In this document: in pieces, positions 1,930 to 7,922 of the stretch
How the letters are laid out: the number at the start of each line of letters is the position of its first letter
Numbering within the stretch: position 1 is the stretch's first letter
Assembly (NCBI GenBank): GCA_017481825.1
Contig: JAFUOR010000035.1
Location: 1 to 44,263 of the forward strand
Direction of reading: 5' to 3'
Length of the DNA: 44,263 nucleotides
Origin: Clostridia bacterium
GTDB lineage: Bacteria; Bacillota; Clostridia; Christensenellales; Aristaeellaceae
Made by a program: the position numbers and the translations under genes
Notes under the pieces: generated by a model
Databases searched by the model: none
The model's input: only the letters and a program-made list of their open reading frames with translations
What the model was told of the DNA's origin: nothing

Positions 1930-2616
1930 ATGAAAAGGTTCCTGCTGCTTCTGGCAGCGCTGATGCTGATGATGACCTTCGCCATCGCGGAGGAAGAAGC
2001 CACTGTTGTTCCCGTTCAGATCATTCCTCAGGCGGAGGACATGCTCTACATGTCCGATGCGATTGCCAAGGCCAATGAGGCCCTGGAGGTTCTCCCGGAC
2101 AATTGTCTGACCCGCGCTGAGCTGGTGCAGATGAGCGATGGCAGCCACCGCTGGGTGGTGAGCATTTTCGACCTGACCAACTACACCGATGCGTGGTGCA
2201 TCGAGGTGGATGCGCTTTCCGGCGAGGTGCTGCAGAAGACCACCACAAGCTACGGCTTCTTTGTGGATATGTATGCGCGCTGGGAGCAGGCCAAGGGCAT
2301 CAACGCCCTGTGGAGCCTGGAGGACAAGATGCTCTACGACACGCTTTACAGCATTCAGCCCATGTACAGCCTGCCGTTGGAGACGGACATGACCCATGGC
2401 GAGGCGCTGGAAAAGGCCATTGCCGCCCTTGAGATGACCAACGCCGCGGAATACAAGATCGGCTATGGCTATATGATGGGTATTGGCGAGGGCGAGGTCA
2501 ACGGCGTGTGGGAGGTCTACTTTGTGCAGAACGATGAAATGGTGTACAAGGTGAACCTGGACGCTGTGACGGGCGAGATCTACTTCATTGAGCCCGATGC
2601 GGAAGAGAACGGCTGA
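1930..2616 (+). CDS. Secreted PepSY-like protein
   Basis: The 228-residue product starts with a classical signal peptide (MKRFLLLLAALMLMMTFAIA, cleavage expected before EEEA). The mature part contains two segments of the PepSY-like pattern: a polar start, a WxVxI or VWEVYF strand, then a strand ending in SGEVLQ (about residue 100) or TGEIYF (about residue 218). PepSY domains are small extracytoplasmic modules proposed to modulate peptidases or other envelope proteins; the precise role here is unknown. AAAGGAGG at 1915-1922 supports the ATG at 1930. A strong terminator follows at 2626-2667. Confidence 0.7.
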   Translation: MKRFLLLLAALMLMMTFAIAEEEATVVPVQIIPQAEDMLYMSDAIAKANEALEVLPDNCLTRAELVQMSDGSHRWVVSIFDLTNYTDAWCIEVDALSGEVLQKTTTSYGFFVDMYARWEQAKGINALWSLEDKMLYDTLYSIQPMYSLPLETDMTHGEALEKAIAALEMTNAAEYKIGYGYMMGIGEGEVNGVWEVYFVQNDEMVYKVNLDAVTGEIYFIEPDAEENG

Positions 2617-3228: not shown

Positions 3229-4281
3229 TTGAAAAAGATCAAATGGGGAAAGATCATCAGCATGGCGGTGATTCTTCTCTCCCTGGTGATGGTGGTGATC
3301 ATCGCCTTCAACAACCCGGAGCTGGTCAATGCCTGGGAGGTGCTCTTCACGCTGGATGCCCGCTGGCTGCTGGCGGCGCTGGCCTGCTTTGCGGGCTATG
3401 TGTGGGCGGAGGGCGCGGGCCTGTTTGCCTTCCTGCGCATGGAGGGCTTCCGGGTCAAGTGGAGCAGCGCGACGCATTTTTCCTTCGCAGGGCTGTATTA
3501 TGCCAATCTGACTCCCGGCGCTTCCGGTGGTCAGCCCATGCAGATTTATCTCATGGCCCAAAGGAAGGTGCCTGCGGGCGTGGCCACCTCGGCGCTGACG
3601 GCCAGGTACTTCTTCAACCAGCTGACGGTGGTGCTCATCACAGTGGTGCTCTGGCTGATGCACCGGGACTTCGCCGCGCAGCAGGTGGGCCATGTGGCCG
3701 GGCTGATTGTGCTGGGCTGCTGCGTCAATTTCTTCTGCGTGCCCATCATTGTGGCGGTGATGCTCAACCGTCCGCTGGTGGAGCGCATCGGGCGCTGGGG
3801 CATCCGTTTCTGCCACCGGCACCGCCTGTGCAAGGATGCTGAAAAGGCTGAAATGCGCATGAATGAGACCCTCGACCACTTCCATGGCTCCCTCATGGAT
3901 CTGGTGAAGCACCCCGGGCATCTGGCGTTCCAGTTTGTCATCAGCGTGGTCGAAATGACCTGCCTGATGCTGGTGCCGCTGATGGTCTACAAGGCGCTGG
4001 GGCTGTCCGGCACGCCGTGGCAGCACATCCTGACGGTGTCCTTTATGCTCTTTGTGTCGGCAAGCTACACGCCGCTGCCGGGTGCGTCCGGCGCGCAGGA
4101 GGGCGGCTTCCTGGTGTATTTTGCGGGCATCTATACCGGCGGTACGATCTCCATGGCGCTGCTGGTGTGGCGCTTTGTGACCTATTATCTCTGCCTGCTG
4201 CTGGGCGCGGCGGATTCGCTTTTCACCAGCCTGCGGGCCAAACGCAAACCCATTGACCGAACGGAAAGGACCAACGCATGA
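3229..4281 (+). CDS. Lysylphosphatidylglycerol synthase TM-region / UPF0104 family membrane protein
   Basis: The 350-residue protein is polytopic, with about eight hydrophobic segments and the family motifs YANLTPGASGGQPMQ (about residues 88-102) and YTPLPGASGAQEGGF (about residues 281-295). This matches the flippase-like membrane part of MprF and the standalone YbhN/AglD relatives. No C-terminal aminoacyl-transfer domain is present, so it is the membrane module only; the substrate is probably lipid-linked but unknown. The start is TTG at 3229 with AAGGGAG at 3211-3217 upstream. The stop overlaps the hflX start (ATGA), so the two genes are translationally coupled. Confidence 0.85.
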   Translation: MKKIKWGKIISMAVILLSLVMVVIIAFNNPELVNAWEVLFTLDARWLLAALACFAGYVWAEGAGLFAFLRMEGFRVKWSSATHFSFAGLYYANLTPGASGGQPMQIYLMAQRKVPAGVATSALTARYFFNQLTVVLITVVLWLMHRDFAAQQVGHVAGLIVLGCCVNFFCVPIIVAVMLNRPLVERIGRWGIRFCHRHRLCKDAEKAEMRMNETLDHFHGSLMDLVKHPGHLAFQFVISVVEMTCLMLVPLMVYKALGLSGTPWQHILTVSFMLFVSASYTPLPGASGAQEGGFLVYFAGIYTGGTISMALLVWRFVTYYLCLLLGAADSLFTSLRAKRKPIDRTERTNA

Positions 4282-6038
4282 AGCAGCAAGTCCATGGCAA
4301 CCTGACGGGCATCCGCGATTCGGTGATCGAGTCGCTGGCCCAGCTCTACCTGTATGAGGTGGCGGACGGCGAATTTCTGCCCCGGGAGCTGATGCAGTTC
4401 CTGGCCCGCTTCACCGGCGCGCTCAACCGGGAGATCGCCGTGTATATCACCCGTGACGGCGAGATTGTCGATGTGTCGGTCGGCACGGATCGGGACGTGG
4501 AGCTGCGGGATTACCGGCTGCGCCGCAATGCGCAGCGGCTCTCCTGCGTGCGCTGCGTGCATACCCATCCCAACGGAGATGGGCGCCTGAGCGATGTTGA
4601 CCTGAGCGCACTGCGCTCATTCCGCTATGACGCGATGGTCGCCATCGGCTGCCTGAAGGGGGAGCCGACCTTTGTGCAGGCCAGCTTCCTGGTGGAAAAG
4701 CAGAATATTCTCATGGACGAGCCCGTGCGCTGGTACAAGGTGCCGGACACGGAGTGGATGCGCCAGATTGACGAGAGCGACCGCATCGTGGGCTGGGAGG
4801 ACGAGCAGAAGAACCCCAACGTGAAGGAGCGCGCGGTGCTCATGGGCATCGAGAACGAGGAATCCCTTCAGGAGCTTGCGCGCCTGACGGATACCGCGGG
4901 CGCGGAGGTGGTGGGAGCCTTCCTGCAAAAGCGCGACAAGCCCGATACGGCGCTGTTCATCGGCAAGGGGCGCGCGGACGAGCTGGCGCGCCAGTGTCAG
5001 GCGCTGGAGGCGGATATCTGCATCTTCGACGAAGAACTCACCGGCATTCAGGTGCGCAATCTGGAGGAGATGCTGCGCGTGAAGGTCGTTGACCGCACGA
5101 CGCTGATTCTGGACATTTTCGCCCAGCGCGCCTCCAGTGCGGAGGGCAAGCTGCAGGTGGAGCTGGCCCAGCTGCAATACCAGTCCTCCCGGCTGATCGG
5201 CCAGGGCCTGGTGCTGTCGCGCCTGGCGGGCGGCATCGGCACGCGCGGCCCGGGCGAATCCAAGCTGGAGATGAACCGCCGCCGCATCCGCGAGCGCATG
5301 ACGGAGCTGCGCCGCCGCCTGGAGACGGTGGAGAAGCAGCGCGAGCTGCGCCGCAAGAGCCGCGAGAAGAACGAAATTCCCGTGGTGGCCCTGGTGGGCT
5401 ACACCAACGCGGGCAAATCGACCCTGCTGAACAAGCTGACCGGCAGCGACGTGTACGTGCAGGATCAGCTCTTTGCCACGCTGGATGCAGTCTCCCGCCG
5501 CATCGAAACCGCCGAGCACACGCCCTATCTGCTGGTGGACACGGTCGGCTTTATCCGCAAGCTGCCCCACGCGCTGGTCAGCGCCTTCCGCTCCACCCTG
5601 GACGAGGCGGCCCTGGCGGATGTGCTGCTCATCGTTTCCGACGGCGCGTCGGGCGAGATGCACAAGCAGCATGACACGGTGGAGCAGGTGCTCCAGGAGC
5701 TTGGCGCGACGGAGCAGCCGCGCATTGAAGTGATCAACAAGTGCGATCTTGGCAAGGCGGAGCCCTCCATCCCCGGGGCGGTGATGGTCAGCGCGAAAAC
5801 CGGCGAGGGCCTGGACGAACTACAGCGCCGCATCGCCGCGGAGCTCCAGAAGACCTTCGCGCCCGTGACGTTCTTCCTGCCCTTCAGTCAGTACGGGGTG
5901 CTGAGCCAGATTCGTCCGCTGGGGCGGGTCATCAACGAGGCCTACACCGACGAGGGCACGGAGCTGACGATCATCATCGGCAACGCCGACCGGGATCGCC
6001 TGGTGGCCAGGTACGGCAAACAGATTATCAAGGCATAA
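4278..6038 (+). CDS. hflX: GTPase HflX with an N-terminal JAMM-like domain
   Basis: HflX is a ribosome-associated GTPase that splits stalled or stress-arrested 70S ribosomes. The 586-residue product contains the HflX core from about residue 185 (GAEVVGAFLQKRDKPDTALFIGKG), the helical linker with GPGESKLEMNRR, and a G domain with GYTNAGKS (374-381), DTVGF, NKCD and SAKT, then a short C-terminal domain. The first ~175 residues are additional compared with E. coli HflX. They contain H95-T-H97-P-N-G-D-G-R-L-S105-D-V-D108, an exact HxH-x7-S-x2-D zinc metalloprotease (JAMM/MPN, RadC-like) pattern, with E52 a candidate catalytic glutamate. The HflX assignment is secure; JAMM activity is inference. 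Confidence 0.93.
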   Translation: MKQQVHGNLTGIRDSVIESLAQLYLYEVADGEFLPRELMQFLARFTGALNREIAVYITRDGEIVDVSVGTDRDVELRDYRLRRNAQRLSCVRCVHTHPNGDGRLSDVDLSALRSFRYDAMVAIGCLKGEPTFVQASFLVEKQNILMDEPVRWYKVPDTEWMRQIDESDRIVGWEDEQKNPNVKERAVLMGIENEESLQELARLTDTAGAEVVGAFLQKRDKPDTALFIGKGRADELARQCQALEADICIFDEELTGIQVRNLEEMLRVKVVDRTTLILDIFAQRASSAEGKLQVELAQLQYQSSRLIGQGLVLSRLAGGIGTRGPGESKLEMNRRRIRERMTELRRRLETVEKQRELRRKSREKNEIPVVALVGYTNAGKSTLLNKLTGSDVYVQDQLFATLDAVSRRIETAEHTPYLLVDTVGFIRKLPHALVSAFRSTLDEAALADVLLIVSDGASGEMHKQHDTVEQVLQELGATEQPRIEVINKCDLGKAEPSIPGAVMVSAKTGEGLDELQRRIAAELQKTFAPVTFFLPFSQYGVLSQIRPLGRVINEAYTDEGTELTIIIGNADRDRLVARYGKQIIKA

Positions 6039-6371: not shown

Positions 6372-6412
6372 ATAAAAGCAGCATGGTGGTGAAGCCATGC
6401 TGCTTGCTTTTT
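6372..6412. terminator. Bidirectional terminator before the convergent acetyltransferase gene
   Basis: The stem AGCAGCATGG/CCATGCTGCT (about 6377-6386 and 6395-6404) has a T-rich tail on the plus strand and an A-rich run upstream (AATAAAA), which becomes a T tail on the minus strand. It fits termination of both the hflX side and the minus-strand gene ending at 6411. Confidence 0.85.
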
Positions 6413-6962
6413 ACTCACAAAGGGTGTTGTAGAAGCTGTAATCGACCATGCCGTAGATATCCTCCAGCGTGCCCTCTTGCAGCTCGCGCACCATGAGGCA
6501 GTCGATATGGGGCAGGTGGAGGTTGGGGCCGGGGATGATGCGATGATGGGCGGCGGTCACAAAACCGCGGGAGCGGTAATTGAGCGGATTGCCCTCGACG
6601 ATCACCGCCTTGTAGCCCAGGTCGGCTGCCTTTTGCAGCCCGTATTCCAGCAGATCGCGGGAGATGTGCTGGCGCTGCAGCTCGGTCTTCACGGCCACAG
6701 GGGAGAGCAGAAGCAGCTCGTCCTCATAGCGGCCCTCCAGGTGGAAGCGGGAGAACATCGCGTAGCCGATGACCTCGTCCGCCTCATCGACCATGATCAG
6801 CTCCAGCTCAGGCAGGTGGTACTTCTTGCTGCGTATCTCCTCCACCAGATGGCGGACGAGGGCGCCCTCCGCGGCGTTCTCGTGCTCGGTAAAGACCTGC
6901 TCCACCATGTCAAGAGCGGCCTGGCGGTGACGCGGCGTCATGGAAAGAATGGTGCGGGTCAT
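6411..6962 (-). CDS. GNAT-family N-acetyltransferase
   Basis: The 183-residue protein has the GNAT arrangement: an N-terminal helix pair, the strand LELIMVDEADEVIGYAMFS (about residues 53-71), LLLLSPVAVKTELQRQHISRDLLEYGL with the acetyl-CoA-binding loop in the degenerate form ELQRQHIS in place of Q/RxxGxG/A, and VIVEGNPLNYRSRGF (about residues 119-133), which resembles the VxGxPxYYxRFGF element of YhbS-like acetyltransferases. The substrate cannot be read from the sequence. An AAAGGAGG site lies just upstream of the ATG. It follows the nucleoside-hydrolase-like gene by 60 bases, probably on the same transcript. Confidence 0.8.
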   Translation of the reverse strand: MTRTILSMTPRHRQAALDMVEQVFTEHENAAEGALVRHLVEEIRSKKYHLPELELIMVDEADEVIGYAMFSRFHLEGRYEDELLLLSPVAVKTELQRQHISRDLLEYGLQKAADLGYKAVIVEGNPLNYRSRGFVTAAHHRIIPGPNLHLPHIDCLMVRELQEGTLEDIYGMVDYSFYNTLCE

Positions 6963-7022: not shown

Positions 7023-7922
7023 TCACTTCATTAAATCATCGCTTGCCTCAGGCCCAAAGTGGATGGCCAGCTTGGCAAAGAGATCCTCCAGCACATACCG
7101 GCTGTCGATGGTCTGGTAGACCAGAATCCTGCGCAGGGGCAGGCGCTTGACATAGGCCGTTTCCTCATCGATGAGCCAGGCGGGCTGCATGTGGTTCTCG
7201 CCGCAGCCGGGGTGGAGCACCACGCCCACGGCGGGGTTATCCCCCAGCGACCAGCTTTCGCCCGCCGTCCATCCGGCGCAGTCGCTGTTGTTGTATTCGT
7301 CCATCTGGCGCAGGAGGTACGCGCCGATTTCGCCGCAGCGCGCAACCCTGTGCTGCAGCTCCGCCAGGCCCACGCGCATCATGCCGTAGCCGCTGATGGG
7401 AATCTGCCACAGCGGCACATCGCTTTGCAAAATGGCGTTGACGGCCTCATGGTCGTTACCCCAGTTGAACTCGCGGAACGTCCAGGCGCCCGGGCCATAG
7501 GCGCGTCCGCCGATGGTCACGATGGTCATGCGCCCGGCGATATCCGGCGCGGCGGCCAGCGCGGCGGCAGCGGTGGTCATGGCGCCCATGCACAGGAGGA
7601 ACAGGGGACGGTCGTCCTCCCGGCGCGCCTCGTCAACGATGCAGCTTGCGCCTTCGCTGACGGCGTCATCCCTGGGCCAGGCCTGCCCGCAGAGCACGGG
7701 GACGCTGCTGCCCATGAGGGAAGTGACGCGCCGGGCGGCAGCGAGGCTCTTCTCCATCGAGCCGGGCTGGGCAAAATGCTCCGCCACGATGGCTTTCACA
7801 TCCATCTTGGGGGAGAGCAGCGCGTGGACGATGGCAAAGGGATCATCCGCCTCGCAGGCGGCGTCGGTGGATACGATCACACGGACATGCTTGGCGTCCG
7901 GCACGGTGAATTGATACTTCAT
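7023..7922 (-). CDS. Nucleoside-hydrolase-like protein
   Basis: The 299-residue cytosolic protein resembles the inosine-uridine-preferring nucleoside hydrolase superfamily. Near the N terminus it has VIVSTDAACEADDPFAIVHAL (starting near residue 15), corresponding to the calcium-binding DxDxxxDD motif, but one aspartate is replaced (DAACEADD). Further family-like pieces are PLFLLCMGAMTTAAAAL, MTIVTIGG and the late EFNWGNDHEAVNAIL (around residues 152-166). Nucleoside hydrolases cleave the N-glycosidic bond of ribonucleosides; the altered metal site means substrate and even activity are uncertain. The start is 3 bases after the stop of the secreted-protein gene, so they look co-transcribed. Confidence 0.75.
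   Translation of the reverse strand: MKYQFTVPDAKHVRVIVSTDAACEADDPFAIVHALLSPKMDVKAIVAEHFAQPGSMEKSLAAARRVTSLMGSSVPVLCGQAWPRDDAVSEGASCIVDEARREDDRPLFLLCMGAMTTAAAALAAAPDIAGRMTIVTIGGRAYGPGAWTFREFNWGNDHEAVNAILQSDVPLWQIPISGYGMMRVGLAELQHRVARCGEIGAYLLRQMDEYNNSDCAGWTAGESWSLGDNPAVGVVLHPGCGENHMQPAWLIDEETAYVKRLPLRRILVYQTIDSRYVLEDLFAKLAIHFGPEASDDLMK

Follow-up and report, generated by a model that had tools for sequence, protein, structure and literature searches.

What is the long N-terminal extension carried by the HflX protein of a Clostridia bacterium (family Aristaeellaceae), and what could it do on the ribosome? The gene lies on contig JAFUOR010000035.1, whose 44,263 nucleotides are the whole stretch of DNA analyzed here (the window). 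Its product matched the HflX family model TIGR03156 (GTP_HflX) at residues 193–522 (E = 5.3e-135; 449.9 bits, above the equivalog cut-off of 216.75), as well as the Pfam families GTP-bdg_N, GTP-bdg_M and MMR_HSR1. Because the HflX models begin only at residue 193–194, the extension of approximately 180 residues is real. According to its predicted fold, the segment formed by residues 1–175 is a JAMM/MPN+ domain, and its fold (as a prediction), its catalytic motif, the conservation of this motif and the position of the domain directly before ND1, with which canonical HflX starts, are established. On balance, we favor the reading that HflX is fused here to a metalloprotease domain of the JAMM (MPN+) type, complete in its catalytic motif, and that the fusion would deliver peptidase or isopeptidase activity to the ribosome.

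An exact JAMM motif in the extension had been proposed in the initial annotation, and H95-x-H97-x7-S105-x2-D108 together with E52 is indeed present at these residues of the translation. The pattern H.H.{7}S..D occurs once in the window when all six frames are read for open stretches of 60 amino acids or more (51,564 residues in all), and shuffling the protein 20,000 times produced it in 4 cases. The AlphaFold2 model of the extension has a predicted local distance difference test score (pLDDT) of 90.4, and its top structural matches are JAMM/MPN proteins (PfJAMM1, AMSH/Sst2, RadC, Rpn11-like proteins, Cap3 and BubCD), which bears out the JAMM-like fold that had been suggested for residues 1–175. 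Among the 50 matches listed in the comparison with the Protein Data Bank (PDB), nearly all were JAMM/MPN proteins, as judged by name or recall, and covered approximately residues 30–162. The end of the feature, placed earlier at position 4620, is thus too short, since the structure matches reach approximately residue 162. A viral structure library yielded 17 matches to the model at E ≤ 0.001, several of which are named JAB, RadC or metalloprotease. In the model, E52, the candidate catalytic glutamate, stands at the start of a strand that follows a helix, and it is a putative equivalent of the glutamate of RadC or AMSH.

Profile searches with the N-terminal part agreed with the model. The family profile A5 matched an AMSH-like protease with E = 6e-4 (E = 0.014 with profile A1), and the first non-JAMM row in the A5 search of PDB sequences was chloroplast ribosomal protein S19 (E = 0.078), which we take as a chance match. 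Profile-profile comparison of the extension family with RadC gave E = 2.9e-5, and in a control with profile A1 the real score against RadC was reached by none of 60 column shuffles, nor by the reversed RadC alignment. When 102 members were searched against Pfam at E ≤ 0.1, Prok-JAB matched 52 and RadC 35, the best member having E = 4.5e-5. The extension of the window matched Prok-JAB with E = 0.15 and 12.4 bits (residues 77–114), under the curated cut-off of 25; in single-sequence searches, its first 180 residues had no Pfam or NCBIfam match above cut-off, and PDB sequences were matched at E = 0.1 or worse, with no JAMM protein among them. HflX-length frames in three other genomes (G073, G136 and G164) likewise stayed under the Prok-JAB and RadC cut-offs of Pfam. 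Searches with the window sequence thus gave little, and the kinship was revealed by family profiles and the structure model. This indicates that the extension is a divergent JAMM branch missed by existing models.

To describe conservation, we used a census of 181 loci, consisting of the class sample (90 genomes), the phylum sample (73), 20 of 58 genomes of the family, and locus L233; 2 genomes are common to the class and phylum samples, and 2 short RadC-like frames were excluded. The family model matched 180 of these loci, and the remaining one, L233, is a 596-amino-acid open frame without the domain, which shows that the length of the HflX frame by itself overcounts extensions. E52, H95, H97, S/T105 and D108 are all kept in 166 of the 180 homologous extensions, and E52 also in 9 of the 14 members without the full set; the motif had been expected to be conserved if it is meaningful, and it is. 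Within the class sample, 89 of the 90 extension-bearing genomes have the full motif. In an alignment of 102 diverse MPN+ sequences (37% mean column identity), the only invariant positions were E52, G69, H95, T96, H97, S105 and D108, of which only G69 and T96 are independent, because 101 sequences (all except a Fusobacterium row) had been picked for E, H, H, S/T and D. When near relatives were compared (12 comparisons), the ratio of nonsynonymous to synonymous substitution rates was 0.066–0.209 in the extension and 0.053–0.209 in the HflX core, values by which the extension is under purifying selection. GTPase motifs follow the extension in the same frame at 174 of the 180 loci; the remaining 6 loci have short frames (155–447 codons), and 5 of these retain an HflX pattern.

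When known HflX structures were aligned to the full-length model, canonical HflX began at approximately residue 182, so the JAMM domain is tied directly to the start of ND1. The connection consists of approximately 10 poorly predicted residues (in the domain model, blocks with pLDDT 61 and 43; in the full-length model, below 50 for segment 176–179). Escherichia coli HflX (5ady), Listeria HflXr (8a57) and mitochondrial GTPBP6 (7of2) align with residues 182–586 or thereabouts, and in contrast to them the window HflX has the extra domain of approximately 175 residues before ND1. Mycobacterial HflX likewise has an extension before ND1. According to the available text of a 2025 review (PMC12493154), which assigns no JAMM domain to it, this extension measures 39–58 amino acids, and a JAMM domain would need far more. 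The same text mentions N-terminal extensions of HflX in several Clostridium spp. and Paenibacilli, without giving their identity. Work on HflX as a ribosome splitter covers E. coli, Listeria, Staphylococcus and mycobacteria (structure entries and the accessible parts of PMC12493154 and PMC7196661). Our literature search, from which subscription journals were mostly absent, returned no paper that describes an HflX with a domain of the JAMM, MPN, JAB or RadC kind. HflX and JAMM are each known, and their combination is new to the literature searched.

The domain also differs from its structural relatives. HNHP is invariant in 21 sequences of RadC (PF04002, JAB-like), whereas the window domain has HTHP and another partner domain, HflX, so that neither the RadC motif nor the RadC architecture is found in it. 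An ordinary, separate RadC is also encoded in the genome of the window (G000, C10:9170-9505). Pyrococcus furiosus JAMM1, solved alone and with the ubiquitin-like protein SAMP2 (5ld9, 5lda), shares 13% identity with the extension. AMSH and Sst2 are eukaryotic ubiquitin proteases, and their likeness implies no ubiquitin system for the HflX-JAMM protein. Cap3 and BubCD belong to operons for defence or for ubiquitin-like conjugation; no operon of this type was seen beside hflX among the window genes examined.

The distribution of the extension was surveyed in the family, class and phylum of the window and in plasmid and phage records. Within the family, 58 of 60 genomes have it, among them that of the window; of the other 2, one has HflX in a 458-codon frame (G012, C80:8697-8933) and one has no HflX match. 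At class level, single-sequence search found the extension in 90 of 291 genomes; 212 of the 291 have the HflX middle domain. Among the class matches listed, HflX frames were mostly approximately 410–470 or 580–635 codons long, with rarer frames of 342–382, 481–539 and 658–765 codons. In the phylum, 75 of 398 genomes matched the profile, 2 of them through short frames only (239 and 247 amino acids) that are RadC-like by length and weak score. A genome-contig scan gave 433 relatives, and in the best 80 of them the motif pattern was present without exception; the titles of these 80 are Clostridia, Clostridiales, Christensenella(ceae) or Candidatus Onthenecus. In the plasmid collection, two records from Fusobacterium matched the extension, and phage records contained no extension match. 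The gene on Fusobacterium animalis pSB029A (a record described as a 218-kb plasmid; L334:2998-4800) is annotated hflX, spans 600 codons, has HTHP...LSSVD intact and stands beside a shikimate kinase gene.

How would such a protein act? As a GTPase, HflX splits ribosomes that are stalled, vacant or hibernating, an activity that the window protein, which bears the JAMM domain at its N-terminus, would share by analogy with its family. In the domain, H95, H97 and D108 would hold a zinc ion and E52 would activate a water molecule. If the mycobacterial protein is a guide, HflX may then place the domain on the large subunit, at its inter-subunit face close to helices H68–H71: ND1 contacts H69, and in mycobacteria H68, H69 and H71 are disordered by the N-terminal extension (available text of PMC12493154). 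There, the domain could act on a protein of stalled or hibernating ribosomes by cleaving a peptide or isopeptide bond. The hibernation factor HPF is one concrete candidate substrate, because in Staphylococcus aureus hibernating 100S dimers are taken apart by HflX, a minor and heat-induced factor in this process (accessible part of PMC7196661), and a single 70S ribosome with both HflXr and HPF is the subject of PDB entry 8uu7, judging by its title. A nascent chain on the P-site transfer RNA is an unlikely target because HflX is reported, in the available text of PMC12493154, not to bind ribosomes carrying peptidyl-transfer RNA.

One qualification of an enzymatic role is that 14 of the 180 members keep the domain without the HxH pair (L214-218, L222, L223, L230 and L278-283; the alignment is poor at HxH in L217 and L283), and catalysis is therefore dispensable in some lineages and not needed in every one. 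Thirteen of these MPN- members come from the phylum sample and 1 from the class sample. They retain R59 (14/14), G61 (14/14) and D118 (13/14) while HxH is gone, so that in these lineages the fold seems to serve for more than catalysis. Eukaryotic complexes likewise contain active as well as inactive MPN proteins, which the MPN+ and MPN- branches found here resemble. We placed all 14 in a tree of 85 HflX cores with 50 of the 166 MPN+ members (after one further MPN+ row was dropped), 20 short HflX proteins and L233 (quick search, Shimodaira-Hasegawa-like approximate likelihood ratio test as the only support, 28 open forks, one long branch, unrooted). The MPN- label required 3 changes on this tree, 2 of them forced by starred branches, and its members fell into 3 groups by family code: 7 genomes of f169, 6 of f126 and f176 together, and 1 of f34. 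Domain-less HflX required 6 changes, 3 of them forced by starred branches, and the domain has therefore been gained or lost more than once, in a direction that cannot be read because the tree is unrooted. Since the domain persists in some lineages without metal ligands, a further role in binding or in anti-association is probable.

These lineages speak for a non-catalytic scaffold, which would widen the HflX footprint on the 50S face, block subunit re-association or bind a partner, the metal site being structural. MPN- proteins elsewhere likewise keep the MPN domain without metal ligands. Three lineage groups do so here, the retention of R59 and D118 speaks for a constraint beyond metal binding, and mycobacterial HflX offers a precedent in its much shorter extension, which acts on ribosomal RNA helices (available text of PMC12493154). 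However, the whole catalytic set is retained in 166 of 180 extensions, and both histidines are absent together in the 14 (L217 being ambiguous), which fits the loss of an enzyme better than the drift of a scaffold. We give the scaffold a minor but appreciable probability. The same retention speaks against a sensor of metal or redox state by which HflX would be switched: HxH...D does have the pattern of a metal site, and zinc-linked ribosome remodelling occurs in mycobacteria (available text of PMC12493154), yet a sensor would have no need for E52 and S105, both of which are kept with the ligands in those 166 members. This makes a sensor decidedly improbable.

Bacillota already have a ribosome-linked protease, Prp, which trims ribosomal protein bL27, and since the JAMM domain would be a second such protease in the same class, it might replace Prp. 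The two co-occur, since 71 of the 90 extension-bearing genomes encode the Prp family PF04327, as do 145 of the 201 that lack the extension and the window's own genome; we rejected replacement, for which we see very little chance. Least credible of all is a chance motif in an unrelated extension. The window sequence by itself does reach only the marginal Prok-JAB score given above and no JAMM protein among PDB sequences, but the chance counts, the conservation, the predicted fold and the profile matches led us to reject this as well. What we propose, tentatively and with slightly less than even confidence, is that HflX-JAMM is an active protease or isopeptidase at ribosome splitting that cuts one specific ribosome-bound protein (a hibernation factor, a ribosomal protein or a protein tag), and that some lineages later made it an inactive MPN- module.

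The gene neighborhood adds little to this argument. A coupling of hflX to a lipid-related membrane protein gene had been pointed out, and the ATGA overlap with the LPG_synthase_TM gene is real, but in a BLAST search with the window protein this gene overlapped or abutted hflX at only 7 of 257 extension-bearing loci, all from near relatives (6 under a stricter rule); in this count some genomes appear twice, 74 loci had fewer than 600 bases upstream, and 2 of the 7 are seemingly one genome. We therefore rejected it as a conserved operon partner, and because the adjacency is so rare it says nothing general on function and is not evidence about it. Other neighbors of hflX, judged by eye, differ between loci. 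A PepSY-domain protein is encoded upstream (window 1930-2616, plus strand); a protein that looks similar by eye directly precedes hflX at locus L052, where no LPG_synthase_TM match was found at hflX. Downstream, a GNAT acetyltransferase (6411-6962) and a nucleoside hydrolase (7023-7922) are encoded on the opposite strand. Table 1 gives the coordinates of the features.

Table 1. Features of the hflX locus in window coordinates.
Feature	Position	Strand	Basis
hflX with N-terminal JAMM/MPN+ domain	4278..6038	+	ATG open reading frame, 586-amino-acid translation; TIGR03156 and Pfam matches
N-terminal extension, residues 1–175, predicted JAMM/MPN+ fold	4278..4802	+	structure matches cover residues 30–162
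E52, candidate general base	4431..4433	+	strand start after helix 36–49 (model secondary structure); conservation
H95-T96-H97, two presumed zinc ligands	4560..4568 (H95 4560-4562, H97 4566-4568)	+	both His in 166/180
S105-x2-D108, serine and third presumed zinc ligand	4590..4601 (S105 4590-4592, D108 4599-4601)	+	166/180 full-set extensions
Interdomain linker, approximately residues 171–181, low confidence	4788..4820	+	pLDDT of models; HflX structures align from approximately 182
Canonical HflX, residues 182–586: ND1, helical domain, GTPase domain, C-terminal domain	4821..6035	+	
LPG_synthase_TM membrane protein, ATGA overlap with hflX	3229..4281	+	PF03706, E = 9.3e-37

The fusion would link ribosome recycling or hibernation with proteolysis, and the presence of MPN+ and MPN- branches within one bacterial family lets catalytic and scaffold roles be separated. 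If HflX-JAMM is indeed active at split ribosomes, it would add a new branch to ribosome quality control in bacteria.
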